From positions 4,257,246-4,321,245 of the forward strand of contig FN649750.1 in assembly GCA_000310025.1 (NCBI GenBank): 64,000 nt of DNA, in the 5' to 3' direction. Below are positions 2,702 through 64,000 of this stretch, piece by piece. The stretch's first letter is position 1; each line of letters starts with the position of its first letter. Both the position numbers and the translations under genes were made by a program. This stretch comes from Ectocarpus siliculosus. Taxonomy: Eukaryota; Sar; Phaeophyceae; Ectocarpales; Ectocarpaceae. Under the pieces are notes generated by a model. The model did not search any database. It had not been told where the DNA came from and was given only the letters and a program-made list of their open reading frames with translations.

Positions 2702-5700
2702 GTGAGCCTATCGACCCACTGGGTTGTTGACAAAGGAAACCGTTGTGTTGGTTCCGTGTTGTTTTGAATGTATCTTTGCCCACAGGACTGCACATGGAAG
2801 GCAAGGGTAGTGAAGGGGGTGTGACAAAAAGCGTCGTTCGTTGCCACCCGTATCCTATGCGTTGCATCTTCTCTTCTTCCGTAGGTATCCGAGGCGAAGG
2901 GCTTCGGCCTTCTTGGCGAGTACTTCAACAACCGGTGGACGTTCGGAGACCCAGTGGTCACACGTGTCGACGCCAAGGTGGACTTCTCCTGGTCGGACAC
3001 GGAAACAATTACGCCAACCGGGCAGGACTACATCTCGGCCCGGTGGACCGGGTTCGTGCAGCCCGCGTTTTCCGAGCGCTACGTGTTCACCGTGGAAGCC
3101 AACGACGGGGCGCGCCTGTGGGTTGGCGATAGGCTGATGTTCGACAACTTCGATGAGGTCAGAGGATTGAGTATGTGTGCCATTGTGCTGCTGTAGGCTC
3201 TCTTGGTTATACAGGGTCAAACATGAAGATTAGCAGTGCGCGACAATTGTGCTGCTATAGACTCTCGGCTATGTATGGTCAAGCATGAAGACTGACAGTG
3301 CGCGAGGGAAGTCGCTCTGCATGGTGAGAGCATGAGTACGAGTACAACCTGCACTTCCTCCTAAACCTCTCCTTCCTACCTACCGTCCCCATGCATCTTG
3401 GTCAGGACCTCGGACGGAATGATACCGGCCTCATGTCCACCTTCACCGCCACCACTGAAGACGAGCTTGTCGCCGGACGGCTCTACACCGTCACGCTCGA
3501 GTTCCGTGAGAACTACGGCTCGGCAGAGGCGCATCTGCTGTGGAGTTCGGGTAGCCAACCTTCAGAAGTAATACCTTCCAACAGGCTGTTCTACGCATCT
3601 GACCCGGTGGGGGACTCTCCCTATTCAGTCACCGTCTACCCCCACAAGCCATCTCAGCCGCTGGAGGCGTTCGTGGCCGTGGAGGCCTGGGACCAAGTAA
3701 AGGTTAGCTTCATGCCACCGGAGAACGACGGTGGCGAGGCAGTGGAGGGCTACATGGTGGAGTGGTGGTCGGCATCGACGGCTTCAGACGATGGCGGCTA
3801 CGGGAGCCCGGAGATCCAGACCCTGAAGATTGGGGGGGACGTCGACGGTGAGTCAGGGAGCGCGTGTAGCGTAGACGTTTTCGTGGCAGTAGATGACTTA
3901 CACTGGCTTTGAATATGGTCCAGAAAAAGGCGTTCACGATGGAAATCACGGGTTCGAGCTTGTAGATGGCGTTAGTACGTGAGTTAGCAAACACAATGTG
4001 GTAGCCTCAATATTGCGGCAGTAGGTGAATTGGATGCCCAGCTGGTTGATCAGTGCGTCGACAACAAGGCAGACAAATGTCTACACTGGTGCCGGTTAAC
4101 GATGTTCTCTACACCTTCCTGTAGTACAGCTTAACTGTACGATAAGCACGGGGGGATAAGGTCTCACATCCGAGTTACAGTTTCAAATAGAAGAACACTC
4201 GTGTCAACTCCAGGTGGCAACGTGTACGTGACATCCCCGGGAGGGTATAATTTCCCGAGGGCCCTTGGTTGGGACATGTCTGCCGAGGACCTAGAGCTGG
4301 CCTTAGAATGGACATTCGACATAGGAGAAGTGACCGTTTCGTACGCAGAGGACTCCAACAGCACGCGCAGCTACCGCGTCACCTTTGAGGTGAGCGATGT
4401 CTCAAACAACATTTTTGCCTCCCTGTCGGGGAATAAATTTTAGCCTTGTTGATGCTGACATTTAAAGATGTAAAATGATCGTCCAACAAAGGATGTTTGT
4501 TGCTGACAGTTGCGGAGACGTGGGGGTCTTGGCGATGATAATAGGGGCGTTGTGTGGGTGATGGGAAATGTCACAGCCGTATCGTGAAGCGTCTAGCCCA
4601 TCTAAGCCTCACAACGCCGGACGGTGTCATGTATCGAAGGAAACGCTGGAGAAGGGAAGAACCAATGGCAATCATGAACTCATAAGGGTGCATAACCCTC
4701 ACCGTTCGGCTGAACCGGTCCACTCTGTATTAGTCATGGGTATCTCCTTTCTCGCACTTCCTTGGACAACAAATCGCAGTCGGAGCTGGGTGATCTCGGT
4801 GCTATGGGCCTCGACTCCACCGACTTGACGTCCTCAACTGGGTTCGTACACTCGATCGTCTGCCACGATAGCTCGACCGCCGTTGCCCCGGGAACAGGCG
4901 GAGCTTCTGTCGGATGCCTCGGAGCCGCCGATTCCCAGGTATTGTAGGTTGATTTTATGTAGCTTGTTCTCCTGTCCTGCGATGAACTGTTTCATGTGAC
5001 TGCCATTTCTTCCGTCCAACGATTTCGCACCAAGTTGCCTCCTTGCGATAGGTTATCACACGATATCATCTGATCCACTCCTCAAAGACGTGTTCATTTT
5101 TTCGTTCATGGCCTTGATCACGTTCTTTTTTTCGTGGTTCGCCACGCCACTTTCCAAAGGCCGGCAATGCCACGGCGTCTTCGTCAACCGATGTTGAGAT
5201 GAACGTGGTGGCTGGCGTGGATCCTTTCGTCTACGTCATTGAGGATCTTGATCAGGCTTCGTCCGAACCGGCTGGTTTCGACGTGAGGGTGTCCGCTCTA
5301 AACAGCGCCGGATACGGTCGCCCGTCCGCGGCACTAAACATCAAGGTGAGGCATGCACGTGGGATAATTTTTTCCAACGTTGACAAGGCTGAGGGCGGGA
5401 AGTAGCGTTTGTTTCCACCTGCTTGATTTTTCCTATACATGGAGTGGCCGCTCCTGCAGCACACCGTGCCAATAATCTATCCGGGTCATGCACTCTATCT
5501 GTGTTTTAGAGTCAAGCTCGCGATCGTCTGCATTTTCCAGCTTGCCGATGCTTGCTCGTCTGGCACCGTCCGCCATTGGTGCTCACCAAAAACATGAAAA
5601 AAAAAAAAAGTGGAACCAGTAGAAGAGAGAGCAAAAGTGATATTCGAATCAAAAGAAGAGATTTTTTCCGAAAAAGGAGAAGGATATCAGATTGTGTCGA

Positions 5701-8700
5701 GCCATACTTGAACCTCGTTCCTGTCCTGTCGTCGCTTGCTGTCTTGCTCTTGCTGCCTTGTGATTTGTTTGTGCCGCGCGTCATGTCATCGGATAAAGCC
5801 TGCGGACGTCCCCTTGGCACCTTCTATGGCCGAGGTGTTCCTGCTCGCTGATAACCCTTCGGGCCTACGAGTCTACTGGGCTGACGTCACTGAAGACAGG
5901 GGCTCGGAGGTAAAGACTCGTTATTGATGTCAATACAACCTTGACAGGAGGAATCTCTCCTAGCCAAAAAAATCTAGCGAGTTCGGTTTCGACCAGGTTG
6001 GATAACTTAGAGTAGGCAACGGTTCCCGAGAAGAGGTCAGGACCATGTTCTTGTGCGTTCTACAGGGCATGTGTTGGGGTAAAAGCATTGCTTGGGGACA
6101 CTCCCCGAACTACCGTAGGGAATATGGCAAGAGTTCAGGCACAACAAATGCTGCTGATAGTGGAAATGTCGATCTTGTCGTCTGTTCGATCTAGGCGTGA
6201 TTTTTTGTAGAAAAGGTGGAAGAATGGGACCAGCGAAATTATGACGTGTTCGTCAGTCTCGTCGCCGTTGTTGAAATTATGGATGATGAAGATGCTGTTG
6301 TTGCCGCTAGTGTGGTTCATGATACTTGGTTTTGTCTACATATCCACGCCCAGGCAACGCCATACTGACACAATTCCAACCGGAGAGTGGCGAAGTTGGA
6401 AGGCACATGAACACGTATCGCCGATTCCCTTCCACGACTGACTCATGTTCTGTCGGCGATAATTTGCGGGTCTGGAACGAATGAATCAGGTAATCTCTTT
6501 CGCAGTTGACTACTCGACCGACGAGGACTTTGCTGTAGACAGCACGGTGCGGATTGAGGGCAAGACGACCTTCTTCCTCAGTGACAGGCGATTGGACAAC
6601 GGCACTACACACGGAGTATACGAAACAGACGTCACTGGCCTGCAGGTGATGAAAACATATTGTAGCCTTATGCGAGACGTTTCGTGTTTCTCCTACCAAA
6701 GGGAATGCACCATTTCCGTCGTATGCCCACCAGCATCAGGGAATTGAACCTGCTTGGCCTGCCTGCTGATGGCTGTGGCAGCGGTTAACCATCTAAGCTC
6801 ATGGCAACGTTTCGCCAGCGGCATTAGCATCGATTGGTCTACCGCTGAACACCAGCAGAGACAGTGCGTGAATAGCTGTTCTACATTTCATATTTTTCCC
6901 CTGTGCCTACTGTGTTCATGCTCCTGCGCTATGGAGGCAGCTGAGAGAACACGGGTTGCTGACAATTTTTCTATGCCATCAACAGCCGTGTGTATTTGTG
7001 ATTCACGACCTCTCACGATCCACCTCCTTGCCTGCCTCTGCTCCTCTCCTTCGTTTAACGTTCCTTTTCCACTCTCTGGTGCATGTGTTTCCCTCTCCGC
7101 CTCCCCTTCCCGCCCTCCACAAAGAGCGGTATCCCATATTTCTTCCGGGTGTCCGCATCCAACGCAATCGGGGAGGGAGAGGCCATGGTCACAACGCCGG
7201 CTTACCTGGTCCCGATGACGGCCCCCGACATGCTTGAGTACGGCACGGGCGTAACGTTGTCGACCCTTCCCGCTGGCGACGCCGTGTCGGTGACGGATTC
7301 GTCGACCTCGCTGCACGTGTCCTTCTCGCCTCCCCCGAATGACAACGGAGATGCCGTGGACGAGTAAGTGTCGTGGGAACCATCTGCACCACGGGATTTT
7401 CCTTGTCGTTGTCGTGGTGGTGGTGGTCGAATCATGTGTTTGCTTGCTAAATTCACGAACTGTTCTTTTTTGCTGTGGAGGCGTGCCAAGCATCGTAGCT
7501 TTCGTAGGGTGTATCTTGGACTGTCAGCCACATGTGCCGTTAAATCCCCTCGTTGTGCAAGCTGCTGTAGATGTTGGGTGCAGCGGAGTTGATGCTTGAA
7601 GGCCGTCACTGGGTTCATGCCACCACGCGCGGCTGCGGGCGCTTTCGGTGTGAACATATCAAACTGCACACAATACCGGAGGCGTGCTATTTCTGTTTCC
7701 CGACCTACCGTTATTCACTCTCTCCGCCCATCCGTTCTTCTGTTAATACCGTGCGGTATTTTCTTCGCGTTATCTTCATGTTCCGGTTGCCCCCGAAAAC
7801 TATGTCAGATACTTGGTGGAGTGGTGGATGGCTTCAGAGCCCGTCCGAAGCGAAGTGCAAGTGCTGCGACTGGCTTCGACGGCTGTGTCCGTTGCGAACG
7901 ACACATTGACCGGAAACTTCCGGCTGTCGTGGGGGGATGGTGGAGAGGAAACAGACTACCTACCTGCCGATGTTGGGGAAGTGGAGCTAGAAGCGGCCTT
8001 GGAAGGCCTACAGGACGTTCGAGACGTTCAGGCAAGAGCAAATAGTTGTTATATTTCCATTTTCAAGAGTCTCTTCGCTTGGACAAGTCGAAAGGTTTCT
8101 TTTCTGCAGCGAATTTAGGCAAATAATATTGCGCCACGTGTTCTACATATCAGGTGCCTTGTTTTCGGGGTCAATCTTCGTGACGAACCCAAGCGAATCC
8201 AAGGATGGCGCTACGCCATCGAACTTTCCATCCACATCACAAACACTTTCGATGGACGTCTGGAACGGCGACTATTTAGCTTCTTTTCATGCGAAGACGG
8301 TACCGACCTTGCTTCTGACAGGTTTCCCGCGAAGCAAACACGGCTTCTGGGTACGACTGGTCCGTGACGTTCCTGACCGACGTAGAGCCGTCCGCAACTT
8401 CGAGCCGGCTGGTAGTATCCTACAACGGCTTGGCCGGTGCTCTCGGCGCCTACATTACGGCAGAGGTTCGTCACAATAAAAAAGAACTTTCGTTGTTGAC
8501 TTTCCGCTTGAACGCTATTGACCCTGTTCCCGATGTTGACAACAGACATTTAGGAGGCCATCCCCAGGAAGTGTAATGGTCTACTGTCTGCGGCAAAATC
8601 GTTCTCGATGTCTCGCTTTCCTTTCGCCCTTTTTTTGTAAGGTTGGGTACGACCTCATTGCCGGACTGCCGGGCCACTCCGGGGTAGTGACGGTGACCGC

Positions 8701-11700
8701 CTTGGGGGGGGAGCGCAACATCTCTGTGCTTTCCTTGCAGAGCGGCATGTTGAAGGCAGGGCTATTCATCGAGCTCGAAGGAGAAGCGTACGAGATCGAG
8801 GCGGTGGATGCGTCAAACGAAACAATCTCGCTGGTCGAGGTGTGTGCTGTTGGCCTGTAGTACAGTATTCTTGTACTCTTGTAGGTTATTTTTTCTTTAC
8901 TTCTGGCCACGAAGATAGCCTGCTCGGGGTATTGATGACGTCGGGTCAAGCCATAGCGCAGGTGTTGAGCCGCTGAGTCGTGACGATTCAATCCCTGTAT
9001 GATGACTGCTCTCATAAAACCACAGGCGTACGGTGGATCGAACGGAAACCTAACGGTCAACTACGGTACCTCCGTCAGAGGCAGGAGCCCCTCCACCCTC
9101 CTCTCTGCAACCATCCCCGCAACGTTATCATCGTCCGTGGCATCACCAATTAGTGATGGCAACGGAGGCATAGCCACCAACTCCAACTCTTCTTCCCTGT
9201 GGTACACCATCACCGAGCTAGAGACCGGAGAGCCGTACTTCGTCAGGGTGTCCGCGAAAAACGCCAGAGGTCTCGGCCTACCCAGGGGTTCGAACCCGGC
9301 GTACCTGGCTCCACCGAAGCAGGTCCCCGCGAATCCCGAAGGGGTGTACATTTTCCCGGCTACTTCGAACTCCCTCAGGTAATGAATGCGTTGTAGGAAA
9401 AGGGTCAGTCAGCCAGGGTGGGGAGTAATGTATCCCACCCTATCCGATCAGTACCAGATGCGTTGAAACGGACTATAAAACCTCGCGAAGGGTCGAAAGT
9501 GCCAACATTCCAACCTATGACAAAATGGTCCAACCCAACGCCAGGATACAAGTTGTGATCCCATGGTGCTGTTAGCGTGGGCACGTTTGTGCAATTGAAG
9601 AAAACGCTTTTCATAAAAACGACCATCACTTTGGTTATCCTTTACCGTGTGGAAACAACCTTCCAGGGTACTTTGGAACGCTCCGCCCGCGGACGGCGGG
9701 TCCTCCATCACCAAGTACAAGATCGAGTGGGACCCCGAGGAGACGTTCGGCTCGGGAGGTGATGGTGGTCCGCTAGGATCGCACCAGAAGGTCGTGACCA
9801 ACTCCTCCCAGTGCAGCTCCTCTCCCTGCGAGTACACGGTCCCCAGCCTGGCTAAGGGTTTACTGTACCACGTCCGAGTGTTTGCGTACAACCAGGTGCG
9901 TTGATTGCTTGATGTGCCCGCTGTGTGTAAAAAACGTATGCGGAAACAGAACAGTATGTTTCGGCGTGCTAAGTGTGTGTTTTGAAGCTCCCAACCAAGC
10001 TTTATCAATCAGCTGTCATCCGGAGGCGGCGCTCTACATGTAATAAACGAGTGATTGTTGAAGGGTTCATATGCGACCTCTTGGTAGGACAACGATGACA
10101 GGCTCTCATCCTTGCCGTAACAAAATAATACGTTCGCATTTTTTTGTACGATAAACGCGTCCAGGAGGGTTTCTCGGTGTCCGGTGCGCTGTCGAGCCCG
10201 TTCAACGAAGCGCCGTGTACCCAAGCATCGCCACCCCCGGCTGTCGACGTTCTCCCCGCCTCATCCACGTCTCTCCTGGTTGCGTTCGAGCCCTCCCTTG
10301 ACGACGGAGGAAAGCCTATCACCAAGTGAGTGCGTGAGGGACTTTCGCCCGTGAGGGCAGTCGCTGTCGTTTCTCACCGGCTGTCATGGCTTTTGTACTC
10401 TTGTTGGCGCTTGTCGCCGAGCTGTCAAGTGGCGTGTGTTTCGCACCTCCTAACGCCCGAGCGAAGTTTCCGACTTCGTGCGCTGTAATCCCGTGTTTCG
10501 ACACTATGTGGTCAGGAACACTCATTTGTACCCTGTCTACTCTGTCTTCCCTTTGTTTCAATTTCTGTTGACAGCTACAAGGTGGAATGGGATGTCATCG
10601 GGCTCGAAGGATACCGCCATGGTGGCAGCCCCTCCGACTCCCTGCTTTACTCCAGCGTTGACGTCCAGGCGGTGGAAGCGTCTGCGTCTAAGAACGACCT
10701 CGGAGGGCACTTCTCCCTAGCATACAGGCAAGCCCTGCACAACAGCAAAGATGCACAATGTTTGCATTGGTTCAACGTCGTCACGGAGAAAAGTAGAGGA
10801 GATGGTGAAACTGTTCTGAGGCCGTTGCTTGTCTCGCAGTACCGCCACACCGCGTTACAGTTCATCGTAGTTTTATATCTTGTTTTGGCCATTTGTTCCG
10901 CAACCGTCTAGTGGCCTCGATCAGTCTATTTATCAGGGTCGCGCGGTTCTCGACCAAGTTTCATAGTCATCAAAATGACGAACGTTGACCATTGCTTTCA
11001 ACAGGGGACTCGTGACAGACACAGTTTCTATCGACTCTTCAGCCGAGGAGGTGGAGGAGGCTCTCAAGGCCCTGCCCACGGTTCCAGGAGGTCTCCGAGT
11101 CACTAGGGAGGTAAGTCTACACCTCACCAAAATACAAAACGCCTTGTGAACCATGCACGGACAAGCATGCCAGAGTGAGTGTAGGCGGTATGGCATATCT
11201 GCAGTTTTCTACTCCTGGAGAAAACTACTGACGACGCCAAGGAACACTCGCAATGTGAGAACAATAAGCCACTACCTACGCGTCGTTGGCCAGATGTTTT
11301 TTGCGTACCTCCCGCTGGTGTAAGCTGTTGCTCTGGTGGATGATAGCAGTTGCCGCTATTAAGGTGCTGCGCAAGAGGGGATGGGGGGTGCTTGCGTTTT
11401 CGTCCCAATGACCAATCATCGCGCAGTTTAACAAGAGTGCACCACCTGCACATCCCCATGCTTATCGTGTATCCAGGAAACTATTCGCGCATCGTTTTCG
11501 CTTGTGTATTGTTGTTGGCCGTCTCTCCCCGTGTGCCTCTCCGGGTGTGAATCATGTCTTATAAGCGATCCTGCTGCACTCTCACGTTACCGAGAGTTGA
11601 CAGGCAAGCGTTTGATATACTCCCGAAAAACAATTATTCAAACATGAAGTTCAATGCGGACGTCGATGCAACCTCCGTTGAGACGACACGCAACTTTCAC

Positions 11701-14700
11701 ACCCACACCAGTCACAAACATGGGCCATCCCTCAACCCTGAACGTCTGCCTCTCCCGAATCTGCGAAACCTTACGATACTCTGCCAGGCGTTGCCCGGAG
11801 ACGTTGGCAGATACGGCCGGCGCTGGCTCGTCAGCATCCCCGCAGATGCCTGCCTGGAGGAAAGGGCCGGGTTGTGTCCTCGGGTGTTGGTATCCGCTGA
11901 CGACACACTCTTCGTTTCCGAGTTTATGATGACCACCAACGCAACGAGCGATGGCGAGGGTTTCAGCGAAGAGTTATCTTCGGAGGGGCCGTCGTTGAGC
12001 GGGACGGATGCGGTAGTCACCTCTTCTAGGTGGATCGAGGGATGGAGGGGCTGCGAGCAGCAGGTGGTATCTGTGGCGGCGACGAACGGTTCGTTATCCG
12101 GAACGTTCCGTCTGCTGTACGGGGATCAAGCCACTGTGCCTCTCGATGCCAACGCCTCCGCCGAAGCGGTTGAGGTGCGTCTTGGACGATTCGGCGTCAT
12201 GTGACGATTTTCAATCCATCAGTTCGCAGAAGCTGATAGTCTCGGGATATGTCGACGGCCAATGTGCCAAGGCTCACAGGGTGTTCAGAGAGGCCCACAA
12301 AATTCTTATCTCGAAGAGATTCTGATGCCATGTTTGACACCTGTTTTGGGGTTCGGTCCTCATCCTTCAAACGCGGCGGTGCTCATGTCTCTAGAGGTGG
12401 CACTTCGTTTTCGTGTCAGTACTTCAACGGTTAGCGCTACATGGAACTATCTTGCAAGTATCGAATACACTCTATGCCCTTCGACGCCGCTAAAACCCTT
12501 TTTTGGTCTACAGGCGGCACTGGAAGGACTAGGATCGGGAATGCTGGGAGACATTGCTGTTCGACGGAAAGCGGTTGCGTCTGAAACTGTTACACAAGCC
12601 GATTCTTTCCAGTGGACGGTAGTTTTCCTATCCGAGGTACACCAGTAGCCAACGCTTCATCGTTATGGCATGCAAGTGTTTGTGTGAGAAAACAAACTTT
12701 TCGCTCGATCCCTGGCATTGTTGGCATGGTATGCTCGTATCCTGTGCGTGTTTTGGACGGAAACTCAGGTATTGGTACGTGCCTGTTCCGTATTGGTCGG
12801 TAATTGATCTCTTGATCGCCTTAGGCATATTTGAAACTCTCACCAACAAGTACAGCGATGTTTAAGCGATGGTTAAGCATAAGGTTCTTGATGCTGCTGC
12901 ACAGCGATGTTTCCGTTGGCACTTCTTCAATCTTCATGAGCTTCATATTTCCTCCTTCTGTTTGCAGTTGGGCGCTCTGAGCACCCTATCAACGGACGTT
13001 TCAAATGTCATCCGGGACGACTTCGATGCATCCATCGAGGCGGGGGTGACCCACCTGGTTACGGGTTGGCTGCCGCTCATGGACTCGAGCTTGAAGGGCT
13101 CGGCCGTCTTCAACGCTTCGGCCAACTCGTCCCATGAACAGTATGAGGTACGCTGATGCTATGTCGCCAAGGTAATCTTGCAACATGTTGTCTACACTAT
13201 TTTGTTGCTGGCCGTGGTATGGAAGTTTTCATTTGACCGACATTGAAGGGGGCGGCGTCATGAACACTTTGACCCATTCCGCATGTATGGAATAAATGGT
13301 TCAGAAACTTGTACAATCGATGAGGCCGGAGAACGGACCTCAGCGAACGTGGATGTTTGCGGCAAATGACTTCATAACACCCTCTGGTCGCCGAAACTCG
13401 CGTTCTTTCGTACAAATGGAATAGACGAAGTGACGAGCGTCCGCTCTTCGCCCGACCTGTTGCAGCAAGTATTGTTCATCTTGACGTGACACAATTATCG
13501 TTCCCGGCGCAGTAGATACATCGAACAACCCTTCCAAGCCCACGAATCCCAATGGGAAAGAGCGTCTATTCTTCCCTTTCTGCACTTGCTGCCATCATTT
13601 ATGAATCACGTTTGTGCCTGCTTCCGTCACGCCAGGTGACGGGGCTCGCAAAGGGAGCGGCCTACCACGTTCGAGTGAGCGCGTACAACGGTGTGGCGCT
13701 GTCGTACGGGAAGACCGAGCCCTCGACCCTCCCGGTTGTGCACCCCGGCGGGCCCCCTGAGCCACCGTCTCGGATAGAGGTGGACGCGTTTTCGCCATCC
13801 TCTCTGGTCATCTCTTGGTCCCCCCCAAACGATGCCATGGGGGGCGATGTTACCGCGTACCAAGTGGTGAGTTAGTTAGAGTCAGGGAGAGACAGGCGTT
13901 CGGTAAGGTTGAGGTGCCTGGGGGGGGTATTGCTTGCTCGTGCTGATCTTGGGAGAGTCTGAGGTGCTCGATCGTTCTTTCCAGAGTATTGAGAGCCTCG
14001 CCATGGCACCGTCGCATGCCCCACACGAGCGGGCAACATCTGATGCCATGCGCTGCTTCAACCCTAACCCATGCTGCTAGCCCTGGCCGAAATATGATAC
14101 TGTGGCGTCCTCAGGCCGCTGTTGCTTCCAAACACATTCACCTGTCAAAGCCACAACATCATCGAAAGAAGGGAATGAAAGCGCATCGAAAGCGCCCTTT
14201 GCCATATGTTGTTTCCAGCTATTTCATCCACTACACCTGACACGAAAATCGACGCTGCCTTTCAACCAAACAAATCATGACACTGATAGGAGTGGGACAG
14301 CGCACCGGGAATCAGCGAGCAGCAGTTTATCCGAATTTCCAACGCGGTTTCCGGAACGTTCCGGCTGTCCCTGGATGGGGCGACGACCGTCTCCATTCCA
14401 CACAACGCACTGGCCTCCCGGGTAGCGTCCGCCCTGGCCTCTCTTCCCAATGTGGCTGCACCGGTGGAGGTATGTCGAGTGGTGCCGTGTCATGAGCAGT
14501 TTGGGGCGTGGACGGGCAGGGTAATGGCAACGAGCTCGAACAAGAGGATATCGCACTCACTAGTGAATCAGGTTTTGGGAAACCTTCGACTCTTAGGATA
14601 CAACTGGACATCACCCCATAGATGGAGTTACCGAGGTGTTGCACATAGCTCTCCAAAGCACGCGATCCTGTTTCCAACTACAACGGTGTTGACGAGGATC

Positions 14701-20700: not shown

Positions 20701-23175
20701 TTCCAGCTGGTGGCAGGGAAGGAAGAGCCAGCATCGGACTTCGCCGTCATCCCTGAACTCAGGCCGCCCTCTCCTCCGTCCCAGTTGAACGTATCGGTGG
20801 TATCGACCAGCTCCCTGGGCGTCTTCTGGTCAGCTCCGCAGTACGACGGAGGGTGAGATCGAGCAAAATCCCCACGAGTTCCAATGTATCTAGTTTAATT
20901 TTATGCTCCGCCGTCTTAGCCACAAAGAAGCCTGATCGCCTGATCACATCCGCGCTGCCCTTCGAACTCGACGTTCTGGACACCATAGCGAGGGGAGCTC
21001 CTATCTGCTTAAGCCTCACCCCGCACTCAGCTTTTCCTGCCAACAATTTCGACCGAGATACTCTGGCAGAATCGTTTCCTTCTCCACGAAATCCCCGCAC
21101 ACCCGCAGGTAGTGAAACGGAACATGGGAGATATATATTCGCTTCCGCATGACGGTTCGTTCGTTATCCAGGCGACCTCGCGGAACTGTTGCATCCTCGT
21201 ACTCGTGCCCTTTTTATCCTGCCAAACCGCAAACCTTGCCGTTCGTGCGAATTTTCCGCCAGATCGGGAGTGAGCAAGTATTTGGTTCAGTGGGACAAGG
21301 AACGGAACTTTGGTAGATCCCAGGCCGGAGGAGCAGTTTCGCACGCTGATGCCGCCGAGTGGAGTGCTGTCGTGACCGACACACACTACCAGGTGCGTGA
21401 AAACAACCCAAACATCGCTGAAATCAGCGCTCCCGAACATTTCTGGCCACGACCGGCATGAGAACTATGTTTGTCTCCAGCGTTGCATGCCCATAGAGTG
21501 CGGGCTTCACGGTGGCGCACTCCGTCAGTAGTAATACGATAATCACGGACGATCCACTGCTGTAGTGATACATAAAAAATACCATAAATGACTACCTCAG
21601 CTGGAGTGAATCAACTCACATCCGTGCCCCCCCCCACCCCATGCCCCACCGTATCTCCCATTCAACATAGATTGAAGGTCTTGAGAACGGCACCGAGTAT
21701 TACGTGCGCGTAGCCGGCTACAACGGGCCCGGCGGGGAGAACTCAACGAGCGAGTCCGAAGAGGCGTTCACAACGTACGGGGCTCCTGCGGACGCGTCCC
21801 CGTTCCCCATCACAACCATCGAGCAGGTACGTACAAAGCTCGCTGGCCGCCCCGTGGATGCTTCCATGGCGGGACAATGATTCATGGTGCACGTTTCGTG
21901 TTGCCCAAGTACTTATTCTACTCCGGCGTTCTCCACGGGCATCCCTAATTCCGTTGGGACTACCCAAACGATGCTTTCGCAATCTGGTCGCGGTTGCAGG
22001 TCCCGTACAAGCCCAACAACGTTACCGTACGAGTCTCTACAGCGTCGTTCGTATCCCCGGATTCGCCCGGGCAAGTGCCAGATCGCTTGGATGTGAGCTG
22101 GAGCCGCCCATCCGTGGACGCAGCCACCCAACTCTTCGAGACGAGCGATGGAGGTAAAAACGCGAAACGTGCGCAGCTGCCGAACTCCGAGCTTTCTGCA
22201 ATATTTTTTTGTTTCAAACTTACTCAAACGATTAGGTCTGCGTTCTTCCACCTAGTGTTGCACCACACACGCGGGGGGAAGTATTCCGAGATTCAGTACG
22301 AGAGAACGCCGGATTTGGACCGCGTCGTACAAATATTTTGTTCCCTCTGCTAAATCTTCACCGGTACTGTGTGCCCGTGCATGTTTCCACAACAAAAAAC
22401 TAAAGGTTCCACGATAACGCACTACCGAGTGAAGTGGGACGTTAGAGCGGATTTCACTTCGGCGTCCAGCAGCAGCAGCAGCGCCTCCGAAAAAAACATG
22501 TCCACCGCGGGCTCCTATGACATCCGCGCCATCCGGAACAACGGTTCCAGCCTCCGCTGCCAGTCCGACAACTGCACGTTTGCCCTGGGCGCAGAGGTGC
22601 AGACCCTGGATGTGTATTCCGGGGACACGAACGAGCTAGCCGGTGGGGAGTACCGCCTGAGCTACACGACCGGCCTTGTGGAAGACAACACCAACGTCAC
22701 ATTGGTCTCGGACTGCATTCCGTTCAACGCATCGTACGACGACTTGGGCACGGCCGTAGAGAGCGTCACAGGGAGCGCTGTCCTCGTCGCCAGGGAGAGG
22801 ATCACCGACCCTGGCTACGGCTACCGGTACTGGGTTACCTTTATCGGGGCCGGGGTGATCGGGGACGTACCGTCGTTGGAAGTCACGGACTTCTCCGGAG
22901 ATAGCACCGCTAATTGCTCGGCTTGGTCGGTGGTTACAGGCTCGTCCGGTGGGGTTGACGTTACCGCTGCAACTACGCAGCAGCACCTCTCTGTGGCAAC
23001 ACAGATTGACGGAGGGTTCCTGTCCGCCGGCACGGGGTACTTCACGCGGGTATCGGCGATCAACTCCATCGGTGTCGGCGAGGCGCAGGAAAGCGAATCG
23101 CAAGACGATTGCGGAGGGGTCGAAGGCGCTTGTGCACCGAGAGCACCCCCACCTCCTCCAGTCGACGCCAAGGTG

Positions 23176-23220
<45 letters not shown>

Positions 23221-50200: not shown

Positions 50201-53200
50201 CGTGCAGCAAACAGGACACCCTCCACCACATAGCTGAAACAATCCTGGATGCATCAACATCGTACTCCCCCGCAACACGCCTCCTCATCTGTGCCAGGTG
50301 GTACGCAACCCCATCGAGCTGGGAACAACGGTGGACTTCGGGTCCGGCACCCCGGTGGAGGTAATTGGCTACCAGTACAACCTCACCTTCTACTGCGCCA
50401 ACGGCAACGTGCCCACCCTCGGCTGCAACACCAGCGGCACGAGCCCCTTCACCTCCACGAACGAGGACATGAACGGCCTCACCCCGCCGGAGGGGAGGCA
50501 GTGCCAGGTCACCAGCGAGATCGACGGGTCTTCCGTCTCCGGAGACTTCACCCTGTCCACGTCGTACCCCCACCAGAAGGAGGGGGACCCCGTGTGGGGC
50601 TACACAACCTCCGGGCTCAGCTGGCGCGCGACCGCCGAGGAGGTCGAGACCGCCCTCGAAGACGTGAGGGACGCGGACGACGCCCGGGTGTTCGGGGCCG
50701 TCACCGTGGAGAGGCACGTGTACTGGCCGGAAGGGGCGTACAAGTGGTCCGGTCAGTACAACTGGTCCATCACGTTCGACACCCGGCCGGGGGACGTGCC
50801 GGAGACGCAGAGCGCGTCGACGGTGGTCACCAACGACGGGGAAGCCGCCGCGGTGTCGGTGGGGACCGCCCGCGACGGCAACGAGATCGACGGAGGGTTC
50901 GGGCTGTCGTTCTGCCCCGGCGGGGGCGACTGCATAACGACCAACGCCACCTACTTCAGCGCCTTCCTGACGGAGGATGAGCTCAAGGCTCGATTCTCGG
51001 AGGCGTTCTTCACGCGGGGCTCGGTTTCGGTTAACGTCAGCGAAGCCTTCGGGGCCGCCGAGGTGAGGATCAGCTACCCGGACAACGACACCGCGGCCAT
51101 CATCGAGGTCTCCGACTGGCTCCGCTTCGACAGCACCGACTACACGGTCGACAGCGTCGTGGAAGACCCCGCGGACGGCGCCTACGACCACCTCGTGCAG
51201 CTCAGCGCGAACGTTACCTCCCTCAAGGGAGCCTACGACGCCACCTTCGGCACGACAGCCGTGTCCGTCACCCGCAGCGGGCCCACGCAGGCCATGGGCT
51301 ACTCGTGGGAGGTGACGTTCTCGAACAAGACGGTGGGCGGGAACCAGCCGGACATCGACTCTACGTCCTCGGAACTAACCGGATCGGGGGTGGACATTGT
51401 CTTGTCGGAGACGCAGCAAGGGAACCAGCTGACGGGGACGTTTACGCTGTCCTACGACGGTGTGTTGAACTCCCATTTTTGGCCCCTTTGTTTAGAATGT
51501 TTTCCTTGTTCGCTTTTCGCTTGCTCAACCTTGCCAACCTAGGTTTGGTTGCCCGGCATGGACTAGTTGCCTTGCCCAGAAAACATCGTACCTTTTGACA
51601 TGCCGATGTGTGAAGCAACGTTTTCTACGATGAACATCGCAGTCATTTGTACGTCAAACATTTTTGGGAGTGCATCCTGTTGGGTGGCCCAGACGTAACA
51701 CTGCTCTTAAACCAAAGTGTGTCTGGTTCTATTTCAGACCCTTGCCATTCCTGCGTTGAGTGCGTTCCGGCAGGATTGGCCTATGGCCGTGATCCACAGA
51801 ACACTTCTCGATATCATACATGTCATGCACTCAAACATGTTTCTGCGATGCTCTCCCCCTAGCACTAACCCTAAGCCTCTCTGTGTGATGAGCTAGCTTG
51901 GAGACAATGGCCGCAAAGGTCTCGTACGTCTGCAATTAATCTTACCTTACCCGAAAAACGTTTTCGAAGTTCGAAAGTCCTTGAATTAACAATGTATTTG
52001 TTTCGTCTGCCCCTTCAACAAACAACCTGCCCTTTGTTGTCAACAGGCGAAACCTCGAGCGAGATCCCCTTCGACGCCGCCGCTGCCTCCGTCCAGTCCG
52101 CCATCAACTCGCTCTCCAGCGTCTACCCTTCGCGGGTAGACGTTACCCGTACGGAAGAGACCATCGACCGGTCCCAGCAGGTAGGGGGTTACACGTGGAC
52201 CATCCTCTTCGACTCCGACACCTGGCACGACCCCACCGATCACTCCTCCTCTGAGACGTACGTAGACGGGAGCTGGATAGGGGATGCGGCAGACTGGGCG
52301 GACACTTGGCCGAGCACCGGGGAGGGGCGGTTTTCGAAGGCGTGGGGGAGAAACGTCGGGCGCTTGCCTGACATGGACTGCTCGAGCGATGGTCTCGGAA
52401 CCACCCGCGGGGACGGCTCTGAGGATTGCAAGGTAACGTACTCTGTTGTTTGTTTTCAGTTGCTCGTGGCACCTCTTGCGCGCTACAGGTGCTAGATATT
52501 CTCGTTCAGGAAATGCTGGTCATTGGTGAGGGACCGTGAGATACAACAGAGGTATTGCGCATGCTTCCAAATGGTCTAACGTTGGCGATATTCTCATCTC
52601 CCCCCCTTCCCCGCAACCCCTTTCCACTTTCCACTAAATGCTACCACACAGATCACGACGATCCAGGAAGGGACGAACCCGCTAGGGGGGACCTTTACCC
52701 TGACGCTGGACGCCCAGGGTCACGCGGTCATGTCAGCCGACGCTGTGTGCACCACCGGGCCCATCGCCCACAACGGTATGTGTGTAGATTGCCATGATTA
52801 TCACTGATATTCTACGCTTGCAGGATGATGTTGCTTGATATTTGTGGTTCATCAGTAAAGATTCGACAATCAATCACGCCTGTCTATCAGCGCCATAACA
52901 TCGACGTGATATTGTGCTGTGTCCGTACGATGAACGTTACAGCATGGGCCACGGCGGAAGAGTCGGACGGAGACGGGACTTCCATGGAGGAGGTACTCGA
53001 GGCCACCGACTGCATCGGCGACGTGTCCGTCAGCCGAGGAGATCCAAACCTCGCTACTCAAAACGGTGGCTACGCCTGGCTTGTCACTTTCCTCAGGGAC
53101 GCGGACTCCCCCTGCCAACAGGTACCCGCAATCACCCAAAATGTAAACCGAGACACATGCCGTAACATCAGCTTTTGAGCTGATGAACGATTACATGTAT

Positions 53201-56200
53201 CGTTGCCCGAACGTGATGTACTCCCCTCGACCCAGATTCCTCGGTTGCGAATAATGCGTTAATGTGTATCCTCATTTACCCCCCATTGACTGGGTCGTTG
53301 TTTCCTCCGTATCATCAGGCCGGCGCCGACGGCCTCTGCAACTCTCCCGGTGACGTCCCCAAGTTCACCCTCTCGGACGACAACGCGGCCGACCTCCTGG
53401 GCACCAGCACCCGCAACGTCGTGTTCGGGGACGGAGACTCGACGCACGGCGCGCTCACGATTCTCGACGTCGCAGACGGTACCACCATGCCCCCCGGAGC
53501 CCCCGAAGTGCAGACGGTCAGGGTGTACGATCTGGAACTTTCGGCCTCCGACAAGTTCGACGGAAACCCGGGTTTCGTGCTTAACCTGGGAGGAAACGCA
53601 AGCGGCTGCGTCCCGTGGAACGCCAGCGCCGATCAAGTAGCGACCGCCATCTCGGACACATATCCCCTGTACGGGGAGAACGTCGTGGTGACACGGTCGA
53701 TTCCTCCGGACGAGGAAATCTGGGGGCTGCCGTCCAGTCCGGCGCCAAATGGATACACCTGGACCGTCAACTACGTGGGCTACGACGGCGACGTGCCTGA
53801 CCCCGGGGCCGACGGGGGGCTTTACTTCAACTCTTCTGGGAACGCGACCGCTTGCCCGCCGCTCACGGGGTGGCAGAGGGTAGATGCGCAGACGCTGGTC
53901 AACGGGACCGTCAACCCGGTTTCCTGCGAGGAAGAGGGCTGCGTGGACGGCGTCGTTCTTCGCAGAAACTTCTCGGACTTTTCGATACCGGAGGACGCCT
54001 GCAATAACGTCACCGTGCCGTGGAACGCGTTGGCGGGAGACATCGAGGCCGCCATCGAGGGTTGCGCCAACGGGACGCGCCAGGTGGAAGTCAGCCGCTC
54101 CGTCATCGACCAGTACGGCACCATGGAATGGGAAGTGACCTTCACAATGAACCCGGGGGTAACTCCTACCGGTGCAGGGGACGTGGAGGCGCTCTCCGTG
54201 GCTCAGAACCTGACGGGACTGTCGGAACGCGCCTCCCAGCCCGTCGTCACGGAAACCCAGCAGGGCTCCACGGGACTGTCGGGCACCTTCGCGCTGGACT
54301 ACAACGACGTCGGGGGCTCGAGGGAGGTCAAGTTCGACGAAGACGCGGACCGCATGAGGCGCAAGCTGGAAGAGATGAGCACCATCTCGGACGTCTACAT
54401 CGACCTCGAGGAGTACCCTTCCAACGACAGCGGGGGCTGGGGAGGCACCGCCGTCGAGGACGGCACCGCAGGGGGATACGTCTGGAAGCTCCGCTTCCTG
54501 ACGGTCCCCGGCACGTACAACGGGGAGACTTTCCCCGCCGGGACCGGTAACGTGGACGCCATTGTCCCGTCGGCCTCCTCCCTGTCCGGGTCTTCCGCCA
54601 GCGTGGTCACCACCACCGTCACCGAAGGCGCGGATGAGATGGGCGGAGGGTTCGCGCTCGCGTTCGCCGGAGAGTCGACCGAAACGCTCCTGTACACCGC
54701 GGACGAGACGGCGGTCGAGGCCGTCCTCGAGGACCTGTCCAACGTCGGCGACGTTTCCGTGTCGTTCGACCCTTACACCCCTACCCGGATCGCCAACGCC
54801 ACCGTCACCGTAGCCAGAGACTCGTCCACCGCGGTGGTGTCTTCGACGCGAGACCTGCGCAACTTCCTGTCACCGGGCGTTGTCATCCGAATCGGCGGGG
54901 AAGACGCGTCTGCGGGCGGCACCCTGGCGGGAACCAACGGCGAGGGGTATCTGGACTATCCCGGTGGTGTGGGACACAGGTGTGTTTCTTGTCTTTGATC
55001 GTTGCCCCCCCCTAAGACGCTGTACCGACCGAGCTGTCGTGTTGAAACATACGGTAGCTTTTCGCTCCATCCAGCCTTGAAACTGACGCGGGATCTTGAT
55101 ATTAATAGAAGGATCTGTTAGTAAACTTCACCGGTATTCAATACATATGTACGCGTTGTGCAGAACTTGACATAATTTATTACTTCCTGGACTCAACGAT
55201 CCTGGCCAAGCCGAGAGGCAGGCACACGACAGCTCCGTATGAGCAGCACCGCCCGATGTCTCAAACCATTCTTGACTTCCCATCCTCGGTCGCAGGTCGA
55301 CGGTGGTTCCCGGCTGGCCCGTCCTCGAGACCGACAACGACCTCTCCTCCAAGGCAGCCGTCGGTCGTCAGGTCCGTGTTGCCGGTTCGCGCTACACCCT
55401 CCGAGGGGTAGGCTCCGAAGTCCAGGCGATCACCCTCGCGGCCGACGAATCAGCCTCGACGGACTTCTGGCAGCTGTCCCTGGTGCACTCCGGCCTGGGC
55501 GGGGAGACGTTGTGCTTGCCATTCGACGCGACGGGTGATGATGTGGACGAGGCGCTCGAGTCTCTGGCTGCTGTTGATGTCGGCGGGGTGGTTGTCACGC
55601 GGCGAGGCTCGGGGACCCACGGGGACCCGTACGTGCACTCGGTTTACTTCGAGGGCGGAAGCACTGCCGGGGATGTCAATGAGGTGGGTTTCTTCTCGCG
55701 GTTCCACCCTCGCTTCTTCGTTTTGTGAACTCGTTGACCTTCTTTTGTTGCTGCCAGTCTGCGATTTTCGTACACAACATGTGCTCATACACCATCCGTC
55801 TCACGCCGCGCGAGAGCAAAATACCAACTCCTTAGCAGACCACCAACTCAGAATACGCCCACCGGTCGTTCAGAAACGTTTTTGCTTGGTGCCGATCGGT
55901 GAACCATGTACGCAAGGGGAAAAATAGGCTTGTCGCGTTGTGTGAAACCTTTATTTCCCTGTCGATTACTGGTGTCACATGAGATAGATTTAACACGCCC
56001 ATTCTAGAAGGGGCTAGACCTTACTACATCTACTTGGTGCTCTTGGTGGGGGCACTCTCCATGTCACGGCTTGTTTCCAGATGTCGATCAACACCACGGC
56101 CTGCGTCCTCGAGAGCGGCTTCGAGGCGCCGTTCAACGCGACGGCGTACGTCACCACCGTTCAGCAGGGGGGCCGCGTCGAGCATCAGAAGCTGACCCTC

Positions 56201-59200
56201 GCCACAGAGGCCGGGTACGTCCGAGGGGATTACTTCCGCCTCTCGTACAACGGCACCAGTTACGCCTCCACGGGCTGCCTGGAATGGGGCGCCCCGGCAG
56301 AGGACATCTCGGACGCCCTGTCCACGCTTCCCCCTGTCGGAGACATTCCCGTACCGTCCGACACGCTGACCCTGAACACCTCGGGCATGGACGTCTTCCC
56401 GGCGGCAACGGTGGCGCTGTCGAGCGACCAGTTCGTTGACGGTCGCCTTGAGAGGGGGGACGTGGTTCGGGTGTTCGGCTCCCAGAACGACGCCGAGTAC
56501 TCCGTCAGCAGCGTCTCCGCGGACGGGACCTCCGTCACCCTGGGCACCACGTTCCGAGCGGCGACCGGTAGCGGGGGGCTCGAGGCCGCGAACGTCACCC
56601 GCGTCGTGCCCGACGCAATTACCGTTGCCCGCTCCGGCACCGGCAAGAGCGTCACCGAGGTGCAGAGGGTCGTCGTCACGGCCACCTCCGAGGTTGTACC
56701 TTTGGACGGGCAGGGGTTCTTCCGGCTCCGGTGGGACCACGACGGCATAGAGGGCATCACCGAGTGCTTGGAGTTCGGCGCTGAGGCAACCACGGTCCAG
56801 GACGCCCTGGAAGCGATCGGGTACGATCTTGACGGGTCTGGGACTAGCTTCGAGGAAGGGGACGACGGTCACGTGCTCGTCACGAGGGAGGGCGACGCCA
56901 GCGCTTCCAGCGGCTACGGTTACGAGTACACGTTCGAGTTCAAGGGCGTGGCTGGGGTTAGCACCGTCGTCGGCAACGTGGAGCAGATCCAGGTGAGCCA
57001 CACGAAATCTGCGAAACGTTCCCGGGAGTGACGATTGGTGGAGATAACTTAAGATGACTTCGTTGTTTTCGATGCTGCTCCTAGAACCGCTGCCGATGGT
57101 GTATCGTGCCAAACTACGTAGACCCAACAGAGGTCGACACTTGCACTTGGCACTTCACGCACTAACACAACGTCGCCTGGTACGAAAAAACACGGATGCA
57201 GGTGGTGGGGATCGGTGCGGTGAACGGCTGCACCGACGTCGGGGGAATCGTCGACACCGATACCCTGGATGGCATCACAGGAAACACCACCGACGGTTCC
57301 TACTACGTGGCCCCGAGCGTTTCAATCGCCGGGAAGCTAGCCCCGGGCGACCGCATCCGTATCGGTGGCTCCACCGAGGTAAGCCGCCAAGCCGGGAGTT
57401 GTCGTGTCTCCTACTGGTAGGACGTTTGCAAGAGCGTTTCTTCGTGTAGCATTGCGTCACAAAGCAACATCTAGAGTGCGTAACTATATATTCGCTAATT
57501 GCTCTGCCAAAGTGTTGTCCGCTGACTGGAACGATGAGAAATACGAATCCTACAACAAGAAATCGGAAATACATCCGCACGTGCGTACGAAGTTACCATA
57601 CCGCTCCCCTGCGCCTCCGGGTACTCTGACTAACCCTTACACTTTCCTTTCCATGGCGCCCAGCCCTACCGTATTTACACGGTCGCGCTCGCGAACGGCG
57701 AAGAACCGTTTTCGCTCACGGAGGCCTTCGACGGGATTTCCACCGAAGAGGCGGCTATTTCCATAGTCGGCGACGGTGTTCCACAGTTCCACGTGGAAAC
57801 TGTCGCTGACGGGCAGGCGGCGTGGACCTACGACATCTTCTTCACGGCTCCTCACCTCGGCAACGTGCCGGAGCTGGTCGTCTTCGACGAAGGCACAGGT
57901 GGGCACAGTCCGGTTCAGTGTGTTTCGATCTGGTCATCACATATGCGCATGATCTATCCTTCTGCGTTTCACGTCACGTATCTGTTTAATGCACACACTA
58001 CATGGAGTTCGTGCATTTGCGGAGAAATCCCACCAGAGAGATCAAGACTTGATATGAGCTTATCCTAGGACACACAATTCCCTACTCTCATCCTCCAGGC
58101 TAGTGCTTGGGCGTTGAGGTTCAGCCGTATCAGGTTTAGGGTGAGGGGTACGGCTACGATGTAGCCTAGAGCTCCCGTGTCTCTGATGGCAATGATTTTG
58201 TCTATTGTTCTTCGTCGTACCTAAGGGGAGTGCGTTTCCGGTGACTATGACAACGAGAACGAGTGGTCCATTATCAGTGGGATGCGCCGTGACGTCAAGC
58301 TGTCAACGGAAGAAGACGGTGGCAGCCGCGAAATCGTAGAGCTTGCGTTGGCTTCTACAGCGGCGGCGGGAGGCCTGCCCGAAGGGGCCGCGATGCGACT
58401 ATTCTTCAAGTACCACGGGGTGTACCACAGGTAGGTGGTAAAATCGGAACTGCCGCAGTACGTCGCCGTGCAAGGTACTCGTATGTACGGCGCGATGATT
58501 CAGGCTTACGCGAGAGTCGATATCACCGGTTCGAGTAAAGTGCAGATCAAACAATACCGTATATAGTACCAAACCGGTACATTCTACGACAATATTGGCT
58601 GCTTCCGTTGTAAAATGAAGAGTATTGTAGGGTGGGCGTCAAAAGTAGGGTTCTCAAAATGTCAAGCCGTATGCGTAATTACTGCATGTGAGAGTGCATT
58701 GCCCCCAACATCCATCCCCCCTGCACGGAACCGCCGTTCGTATGATATTGTAACGACAACATAAATTAATACAGGGTCCCTGACACGGCCGAGTGCTTCC
58801 CGTGGGAGGCTGGCAGCACATCGGTACTAGAAGCGGGCTTTGACGACATCATCGGTGAGGCGGGGTCGGTTCTTGTCAGCAGGATCGGAGATGAAACTGC
58901 CACCTCGGCGTACGGCTATACCTACGGAATCGACTTTGCCGGTACCGCAGTGAGGGGCGACATGGATCTGAGGTACTTTTGTATTTTTATTTTTTCGAGA
59001 TATGTCCAGGCGTCCCCGTACCTGCACCATGGTAGTGTAGTGTATTTCGGTTTGCGTGGAGGCTGGAATGCTCCCATATCTCATTCATTCCACGCCCTCC
59101 CCCCCACACGTCGCTTGCCGAGTTACCTGCTGCTTCAAACAGATTTTTCGAACCCCTTTATGGCTTATGCTTTTGGAGTCCCTTTGCTTTTTCTTGCAAC

Positions 59201-62200
59201 CCCTGACACATGGGACCCGGTCCGACCAATTCAAGTGTTGTCAATCTGAAAAATTGACTGTCGTGCGATTTCGAGCACTTTCGCTATTCATTGTTCCACG
59301 CGAATTCATCGTGTGCCGTGTCTCGCCCCTTCCCACACGCCCAACTCGCCATTACTCCTATCTATTCCAGATTGCTGATCGCGCAAGAAACACTGGATGG
59401 TGAAGCTTCGGGTGTAAGCGCGGTGATTTTCGATGGTCTCGGGGAGTCGTCGAGCATTGAAGTGACACTAAACGACGACCTGGACAACGCGGGCTTCGCC
59501 GACGCCATCATCGGATTAACGTAAGAAACGGGTGCAGGGAGTAAATCACGGTGTGAGTAATTTGTAGAAGGAATCGTCCTCCAGGAGTTAGCTGAAGGCG
59601 TGTTAGCAGGTAAAGTAGGTGATACGCAAACCTCGCTACGTCGCTAATATATATCCACCAAACGGATCAAGTGTAACACCACACCAGAGATGCACAACTA
59701 CTCGGGAAAAAACCTCGTTGCAAGTCTGGGTCCCATCGATCAAAGCCAAAACTTCGGAACCCCTTGGGAGCGAAGCCTCCGGCGGTGGAGTTTCCGATGA
59801 AACGGCTTCGAACGCCCCCCTGCCCCATCTCTACCCCGTTGCCGTCATGGTCTCGGCGACAAAAGAGTTCTCGGAGCTTCAAGGATAGTGTCGCACAACG
59901 TCCAACCCAAACTGGCCCAAGATAGACCATCCCTTTTACCGCCCGTTTATCTTTCCTCCCTTTCTCGTATCCCTACAGCTACACTGGATTGGACGTGAAC
60001 TCATCCCACACGTACAGCTACAACCTGACGGTGTGGGGGTTCGGCGACGACATCCCGAGCGAGAGCTCCTCCTCTTCTTCCTTTGGGGGCGCCTACACCA
60101 ACCACACCATAGACTTTGCCGAAACCGATCTCGCGGCACCCCTCAACGTGACCTTCGTGAGCAGCGACGGCCTGGTCGAAGATGACACTTGGACGATCCT
60201 CATTTCTTCTTGCGGCGCTAACGCCTCTCTCCCCGCGGGTGCGTCGGTGACTCTGACGTCCGAACACGGGACCGTCGAGGTTAGGCAGCTGACTATAGAC
60301 CGGGGATACGAGGGGACTGTCCCCGGGTCTCACGAGGTGTACTTGGTGAACCAGCATTTCACCGTTCGCGCAGCAGGTCAGAGAAGTTGTGCGTCACCCT
60401 CGAATCAGGAGGTGTTCTCTGTGTTTAAGACTCGAGTTTAGGATATTTCGCTTTCTCTCATCCGCCTTGCGACATTTGGTCAGTACAACAATAGTTTTAA
60501 GTATGCAATACCGTAATATTGTTTCGAAGGAGAATCTTCGGCGACCGCAGCACAACTCTTCGAATGCCATTCTTGAAAACGTTCTTTATAGAGAAGGTTT
60601 CCTCCCAACCTACGTTACACAGCGTTGTCATTGTTTTCCATGCGCGCACCACGCTCTAGGTACGGAAGTGCAGTCTGTCACGGTTGCCAACACGGGTTCG
60701 TCGACCACTTGGACCTACGGCAGCCCGAGCTACAGCTTGAGTTTGAACGAGTCTACACACACGGCGTGTATGGCATATGATGCTGAGGACTGGGAGCTGG
60801 AGGTTTGTACAGGAGATGATCGCTTGTCGCCAACTCGATCACAGTCCCTCTTGATGTCATTCATCTTCCTCTGGCGACGCTCTGCAGTACCTAGGGGCTT
60901 CGCTCGCGGTTTTGGTTAGCCCTGACGAGGTCCATTTTCATGTACCTAAGAGATGTACGCCTAGGGTTCAGCACGCACCTTGGGACACGTCATACCGTGT
61001 CTTGCATCATGCCTCGGTTTCATTCAGCACGCGATTTTTCGCGTGGGCGCGCGCACAGCCGCATACGGTCCGACATGCTGCAAACGTGATAAATTAAGGA
61101 GATGTTGTTGGGCACAATTGTATAACATGCTCCTCCCGTCTCCTATTCTCTGAAACATGCAGGAGGAGCTGCTGTCCTCGCTCGGGTTGGACGTGACAAT
61201 CACCCGGAGAGAGGACGCCACTTTCGCTCCGAACGGCTACATATACAACGTATACTTCGATGGCGAGATGCAGGTAAGAATTTCCGCGTCACTGTGCCGC
61301 TTACAGTCGTGCTATATGTTTCTAAGGAACGCACCGGTCAGATTGTACGAACAGCTTATGCTCTGTCTCTAGAAGTGCATATACCAGTGCCTGGAGCACA
61401 CATCAAGATAGGCGAAACCAATAGCAACATGTGGAAAGAAAGTATCCTGCCCCCAACCAGCACTTCGCCCCCACCTGCTTCTATACATGATGTCCTACGC
61501 TTCCCGTTCTCGCTTGAAGGACGCAACAAATGTGCCCGACCCGTATACATCCGGGGGCCTGAACGTCACGTACGAGGGCTGCGTGCCATTTGATGCCATT
61601 GCCGGAGAAAGCGTCACTCTGGCTACAGTAGCTCAAGGAACTACGGCGGGGGGTATCTCATCTGCCGTGCAGCTTCCGCTGGGGGATGTAGACGACCCTT
61701 CGCTGGAGGGAACGTGAGAATGTTACCGAAATTGATCAGTGTTGGGTCGCTCAATTACGAAACGTGATTCAAAGCACGAGTTTGCTCGCTATGTAGCCTA
61801 GTACTCTTTGCAGGCAGTCAAACTAGATGTAATATTTCATCTTACCCTGCCGCCACGCTGCCAAATATCGATTGCCCTTGATTGGAAACATCTTGAGAAG
61901 AAGTCTATGCTGGAGGTATCGATGGGATGCCCTTCACTTTTTTAAACACCATGAACGACGTAGATATATGGCCTCGGAGCTATCGAAGAACGACATCACA
62001 GGCCATATTCTCCGATTTGATGCCACCACCGTACCGCTGTCAGTCTGCTACTGCCGATGCAACGCAGTCCCACGCGCTACTACCTTTAGGTACTCAGCGC
62101 AATGCAATGCGTACAACAAACCCAACCCACGCAGGTTCCTTGGTGGAGATGGCACCGCAGAGATGGCCTTGTACCGTGTCTCGGGACACTTGTACACGGT

Positions 62201-64000: not shown

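Follow-up and report, generated by a model that had tools for sequence, protein, structure and literature searches.

Can a single protein carry other folded domains inside one FN3 domain after another, at the same site each time, with the separated halves of each FN3 still folding together? The question is raised by a stretch of 64,000 nucleotides from the brown alga Ectocarpus siliculosus (C25:4257246-4321245), called here the window; its positions are preceded by w. The original prediction had described about 14 FN3 domains opened after strand C by copies of a domain named R, together with eight unbroken ones, between positions 3628 and 62700.

Gene model and order of the FN3 halves

The window was located inside a single plus-strand gene model of 170 exons and approximately 122 kb, obtained with a gene finder whose training set was this region. 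The gene extended beyond the window by 40 kb on the upstream side and 18 kb on the downstream side, with matches of the R, FN3-front and FN3-back profiles on the plus strand; this extension on both sides, like the S domains lying inside R domains described below, goes beyond what had been noticed originally. The predicted protein measured 17,621 amino acids from the likely first methionine, with a mass of 1,844 kDa (approximately 1.84 MDa), an acidic pI of 4.05 and no internal stop. An earlier gene model with many spurious tiny exons was dropped and replaced using a higher intron cost. With frame coupling and domain hints both switched off, the finder still placed 156 of 167 introns in frame, where one third was expected, and 156 of its 168 exons coincided exactly with exons of the 170-exon model. 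The 11 introns that were out of frame when the frame was not forced may be small splice-site errors. The finder also predicted 85 reverse-strand exons (17.4 kb) in the 164-kb region, and some exons beyond the gene too, indicating that it is not fully specific and that single exons of the model may be wrong.

At the N-terminus, a signal-peptide-like stretch, recognized by eye and by hydrophobicity, was directly followed by an FN3 front half, and the stop codon was found 18 residues beyond the last FN3 back half. Besides the N-terminal start, only one marginal hydrophobic window was present in the whole predicted protein. The gene probably encodes a secreted acidic giant with roughly 37 FN3 domains arranged in tandem as its backbone. 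Genome searches were made on the 189.5-Mb assembly. They gave 87 light-harvesting family matches; one light-harvesting protein of the genome matched chain FCP17 of entry 9ygv (E 2.2e-122), which we take to be the giant kelp photosystem, in line with a brown-algal origin. Three PA14 matches were found in the assembly when the best candidates were scored, all of them within this gene (w2906-3157, w-925 to -623 and w-12555 to -12388). A filamin/ABP280 repeat was situated between R domains of the same predicted secreted protein; four filamin matches were found in the whole genome.

Three profiles, for the FN3 front half (strands A-B-C), the FN3 back half (strands E-F-G) and R, were run on the spliced gene model. 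For the counts, the profiles were rebuilt from this protein only, and their E-values refer to it and not to a database. At E < 0.01, the whole gene contained 36 front halves, 36 back halves, 78 R domains and 11 copies of a small domain, S. The features of the window are as follows; FN3 entries come from the pairing of front-half and back-half profile matches on the spliced model unless otherwise stated.

1..2764, plus strand: part of a 3.7-kb exon (w-1042 to 2701) with five R and a filamin repeat (w389-664), by profile and Pfam
1655..2137, plus strand: one R within the 3.7-kb exon, split by an S domain
2906..3157 (C25:4260151-4260402), plus strand: PA14 domain exon, E 1.2e-15
3646..5324, plus strand: FN3, one R inserted
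5832..7184, plus strand: FN3, unbroken
7290..9277, plus strand: FN3, one R inserted
9323..10176, plus strand: FN3, unbroken
10228..13707, plus strand: FN3, two R inserted
13753..17495, plus strand: FN3, two R inserted
17992..18878, plus strand: FN3, unbroken
19896..20396, plus strand: R outside any FN3, between two of them (exception)
20764..21733, plus strand: FN3, unbroken
22000..23085, plus strand: FN3, one R inserted
23146..24433, plus strand: FN3, unbroken, weak front half (E 0.006)
25105..25323, plus strand: FN3, unbroken; the front half matches the profile in its last part only
25363..27535, plus strand: FN3, one R inserted
27974..30180, plus strand: FN3 with a 106-residue insert without R, S-like by eye from w28656
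30217..33269, plus strand: FN3 split by an R that appears itself split by S (w31042-31182)
33309..35375, plus strand: FN3, two R and one S inserted
35415..36416, plus strand: FN3, two R inserted, one open exon
36465..37163, plus strand: FN3, one R inserted, one open exon
37215..39709, plus strand: FN3, three R and two S inserted; front half by eye
39800..43381, plus strand: FN3, five R and one S inserted
43424..44404, plus strand: FN3, two R inserted, one open exon; halves form one FN3 in model m1c8e73bc0964
44435..45604, plus strand: FN3, two R inserted (the first with a long internal insert), one open exon; halves form one FN3 in model m93baf1f69a59, first R not modelled
45641..45931, plus strand: FN3, unbroken
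45971..46288, plus strand: FN3, unbroken
46331..62705, plus strand: FN3 with halves 2,677 residues apart, 16 R and 4 S between them
63228..64000, plus strand: start of a five-R block (to w67087) in the A-B loop of one FN3; A strand by eye

In the region w46331-48600, strands of approximately 20 residues (D-E-V-Q-x-x-T/V) were repeated; they resembled the first strand of R, but the remainder of the domain was missing.

Front and back halves alternated with only two breaks among the 72 halves. The front half at aa 1727, upstream of the window, had no back half between it and the following front half (aa 5510); the 3.7-kb exon belongs to the block opened at aa 1727. The back half at aa 10720 had no profile-supported front half; the partner given to it by eye, at aa 10020 (w37215), lacked even a weak profile match (0.8 bits). 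Pairing each front half with the next back half gave 36 pairs, 35 profile-supported and one by eye. The 35 pairs consisted of 19 split by R, one split by an S-like insert alone and 15 unbroken. Within the window, 23 pairs were profile-supported (14 split by 1 to 16 R, one split by the S-like insert and eight unbroken), and the split pair with the by-eye front half came in addition. The numbers first proposed for broken and unbroken domains were therefore recovered, and so was their range, with the first front half at w3646 and the last back half at w62705.

Over the whole gene, 21 of the 36 paired FN3 domains (one by eye) were interrupted after strand C, 20 of them by 1 to 16 R domains and one by an S-like domain. 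The distances from half to half did not overlap: 23-46 residues in the 15 unbroken domains versus 106-2,677 residues in the 21 interrupted ones. The length of 45-60 residues first proposed for the gap in the unbroken domains depends on how its ends are chosen. R was present in 20 of 36 front-to-back gaps versus 2 of 35 back-to-front gaps (Fisher p 3.7e-6; the count took in the by-eye pair and left out the unclosed block), so that a separate profile search of the two halves, as had been suggested, gave near-alternation with R mainly inside the pairs. Fifty-six R domains were inside closed pairs, including three in the by-eye pair, and 16 in the unclosed block. One conserved insertion site accounts for the 20 gaps with R, but not for every case: apart from the unclosed front half, one R (aa 7201-7310, w19896-20396) was located between two FN3 domains, and five R (aa 15630-16137) between the A and B strands of one FN3.

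Pairing of the separated halves

Four split units were each contained in a single open exon (w35415-36416, w36465-37163, w43424-44404 and w44435-45604), which makes splicing irrelevant for them. The last two were modelled with AlphaFold. Residues 1..341 of the w43424-44404 model superposed on one neogenin FN3 (Z 12.8, 94 aligned residues, rmsd 1.9), and residues 1..405 of the w44435-45604 model on one titin FN3 (Z 12.7, 97 aligned residues, rmsd 2.6; VIA-align in both cases). The first of these is the domain opening at 43440 and closing at 44400 that had been singled out for structure prediction, and its halves pack as one FN3; the opposite outcome, halves that do not pack together, was seen in neither unit. 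The mean pLDDT of both halves in both models was 82-95 per 10-residue block, with 54-76 at the edges. The linkers and parts of the R domains were below 50, and the whole-model pTM values were 0.41 and 0.35. The underlying alignments were shallow (46 rows for A2 and 42 for A3, many of them fragments, with a mean column identity of 7-8%) and contained no row with a whole unbroken FN3.

The halves of all interrupted domains were also joined and scored against a profile of the 15 unbroken domains. Joining in the natural order gave a higher score than the better single half in 18 of 21 cases and than the wrong order in all 21, the mean scores being 47.0, 35.2 and 32.5 bits, respectively. Ten of the 21 were compared with Pfam fn3 (PF00041): nine passed the cut-off when joined and the tenth reached 23.2 against a required 25, whereas single halves passed in two cases and gave no match at all in three. 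It could be argued that the insertion of R destroyed the host domains, and that we are looking at remnants whose halves fold together no more. Some halves are indeed weak, above all the by-eye front half at aa 10020; the joined cases at aa 5895, 8862 and 10020 scored no higher than their better half, and one front half is partnerless. Against the nine joined cases of ten above the Pfam cut-off, and a single domain predicted in both modelled units, we regard this explanation as very unlikely.

A second alternative is circular permutation, the true unit being a back half followed by a front half, with R domains as plain linkers between units. A back half does adjoin the next front half in nearly every case, and the AlphaFold inputs, made of a front half, two R and a back half, placed the competing partner, i.e., the back half of the preceding unit, outside the models. 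However, the mature protein opens with a front half and closes with a back half, 15 domains are unbroken in the ordinary order, and the models in canonical order reach FN3 Z scores of 12-13. The linker from strand G to the next strand A was judged by eye to be a few residues long, too short to cross one sandwich. In the alignment with titin, the stretch from a back half to the next front half fell across an ordinary titin domain border, which indicates that a front half pairs with the back half that follows. A permuted unit thus appears highly improbable.

The models and the scores support the view that the front half and the following back half of a split FN3 fold together as one sandwich. 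The pattern of halves and inserts and the gene model can be read from the sequence, and the common fold of two units is seen in the predictions. We consider a secreted giant of nested FN3 and R domains, in which the split halves still fold together and strings of R are carried as inserts, to be the probable explanation as a whole.

The inserted domains and the origin of the split

None of the 20 R domains compared with Pfam matched a family (best E 0.12). The R profile matched gp23, the tail tip cage protein of phage Bxb1, in three stretches (E 7.9e-31), and the second R of the modelled unit w44435-45604 superposed on gp23 with Z 11.4 (90 aligned residues, rmsd 2.2, 32% identity). By similarity of sequence and predicted fold, R would be a gp23-type domain, significantly related to the phage protein. 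Eleven of the 20 R domains had a match to a major tail protein of PHROG (E up to 0.1, the lowest being 3.1e-8); the matches of the Bxb1 major tail and capsid proteins to R covered 35-47 residues only. A tblastn search of the whole FN3-R unit against 50,697 phage records gave no match, so the link between R and phages is visible by profile and fold only.

In bacteria, R was found singly or in tandem at ten loci of Actinomycetota and Planctomycetota, with up to eight in a row; no FN3 match at E < 0.01 was present within 7-12 kb around each locus. Planctomycetes bacterium K23_9 showed eight R matches in 6 kb (locus positions 916-6852). Two plus-strand R arrays were observed in the Ectocarpus genome itself, with 36 matches in 30 kb (C12:592000-621999) and 11 matches in 20 kb (C2:8140000-8159999). 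With zero FN3 matches at E < 0.01 in either array, these appear to be R-only giant genes of the same genome. The search for nested genes in this genome scored the best candidates only, and a scan of viral contigs for nested FN3-R found none.

A further match was to residues 212-300 of a tubular mastigoneme protein, 9ufe_BA (E 0.054 in a database search with a 20-row profile). The fragment alone, scored with the gene-wide R profile, reached 25.1 bits (E 1.4e-4 for a set of 177,635), compared to 7.5 for the best of 300 shuffles. This suggests that the giant could belong to the tubular flagellar hairs of motile cells. The match was borderline in the unbiased database search, however, and a genome search with the 9ufe mastigoneme piece gave no match, though this shows little. 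Since phage and bacterial proteins contain R as well, the domain is not specific to mastigonemes, and we think it unlikely that the protein is a mastigoneme component. In the solved structure of 9ufe_BA, the R-like domain extends along nearly the full length of R, and it might tie stramenopile flagellar hairs to the phage and bacterial domain family.

The S domain showed only a weak match to the Spt5 KOW region (E 0.03) and is perhaps SH3/KOW-like. Its excision clearly raised the score of the spanning R in 2 of 13 cases, the other 11 being ambiguous or without gain: at aa 5050 the score rose from 55.5 to 64.9 bits, and at aa 8588 from 62.1 bits plus a separate 3.5 to 72.7 bits. By this excision test, at least two R domains are clearly themselves split by S domains, and, judged from sequence, three levels of nesting (FN3 > R > S) would be present at w30217-33269. 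The S-like insert of w27974-30180 was called by eye, with no S-profile match at E < 1. One S-profile match, on the minus strand at window positions -9119 to -8970, was antisense to a predicted exon and had probably entered an early S profile by chance.

How the FN3 domains came to be split was approached with a tree of 36 FN3 domains over 66 columns. Split and unbroken copies were intermixed, and 24 of the 33 inner branches were open. A single origin of the split state was found in 0% of the bootstrap trees, and the starred branches force at least two changes. The tree required 10 label changes, against a mean of 11.8 in shuffles, 90 of 500 shuffles being as low. The first and last R of the units showed no match by position (shuffled-label p 0.97). 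The introns do not mark the insert borders, and exon shuffling was therefore rejected as the source of the inserts: the end of strand C had an intron close by in 7 of the 21 interrupted and 4 of the 15 unbroken FN3 domains, and strand E was directly preceded by one in 4 and 6 of them, respectively.

Two possibilities had been put forward from the start, a duplicated FN3-with-R unit or a tolerated loop. Duplication of one nested unit, with loss of R from the copies that are now unbroken, would agree with an insertion region that is the same in nearly all units, and with R and FN3 each being one family by profile. The mixing of the copies in the tree, the bootstrap result and the forced changes speak against it, within the limits of 66 columns and the open branches, as do the lack of positional signal among the R domains and their varying number per unit (1 to 16). 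We therefore find a single origin doubtful, with some chance of being true, and weakly favor, at low certainty, the repeated use of one tolerant loop.

Known systems and possible function

A comparable arrangement is known from the insulin and IGF-1 receptors, in which one FN3 is interrupted by an insert. The model of w43424-44404 superposed on residues 578..797 of 5u8q, which we take to be FnIII-2, with Z 10.7 (82 aligned residues, rmsd 1.1) across the insert. Over the receptor structures 5u8q, 8yyl and 7u23, 82-85 residues were aligned within chain spans of 216-221, and the model of w44435-45604 also superposed on insulin/IGF-1 receptor structures. Among 7 large exons of the 170 compared with Pfam, L1-CR-L2 and tyrosine kinase domains were absent. 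According to passages of a published account, the insulin receptor family has one insert domain, in the second FN3, presumably disordered and holding the cleavage site (PMC2577065). In contrast, the inserts of the algal protein are folded domains, occur in many of its FN3 domains and form strings of up to 16.

A long tandem arrangement is shared with titin and other FN3 giants, and titin-like sequence is found here too. The FN3 domains of titin are not known to be interrupted. The algal protein further differs from titin in being predicted as secreted and in containing R, PA14 and filamin domains. Nesting in general is also known: an ECOD survey describes, in the passages available, the A1-B1-C-B2-A2 arrangement, with six levels in an RNA polymerase (PMC13114784). 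Neither an FN3 host nor a protein in which one site is used again and again appears in these passages, and the words fibronectin and immunoglobulin are absent from the text. A search of the open-licence literature brought up no protein in which more than half of the FN3 domains contain inserted folded domains. Within this literature, the initial impression that the arrangement had not been described holds for the repeated insertion along one protein, and not for the insertion into a single FN3.

In an FN3 domain, the termini lie at opposite ends and the C-E region at the side. If the halves fold together, the chain would exit the sandwich sideways, form a string of R domains and return, and the inserts would thus leave the backbone laterally. 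With the main chain running through the FN3 domains, we propose a molecule made of a backbone with lateral arms. The R arms, related to domains of phage virion proteins, would likely bind partners such as wall glycans. The Ig-like domains on the capsid and tail of mycobacteriophage Douge bind glycans, according to parts of the report on them (PMC13033339), an analogy that is only a lead for glycan binding by R. Each split FN3 would in addition store hidden length, freed if the host domain is pulled open. The likely site of the protein is the algal cell surface, the wall or the flagellar hairs, where the giant may serve as an adhesive or stretchable molecule. The PA14 domains and the filamin repeat would add to such a surface or matrix role.

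A more specific version, which we consider rather improbable, is a toughening or sensing polymer, in which the FN3 domains act as force-gated clasps over R loops of 100 to 2,700 residues and lengthen stepwise, the R strings being glycan-binding arms at rest. If this were true, hidden length stored in nested domains would be a material principle that had arisen in a brown alga.

The nested giant, as we interpret it, would represent a different way to build a large extracellular protein, with a load-bearing backbone set apart from the binding modules and with length stored. With insertion at one site repeated some twenty times in the same molecule, it would also offer natural replicates for the study of insertion-tolerant loops. 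Brown algae are said, in part of a review, to be without fibronectin and collagen and to possess integrin-alpha-like proteins (PMC8307928). In view of this reported lack, a secreted FN3 giant is a candidate component of the brown algal matrix or of its adhesion.
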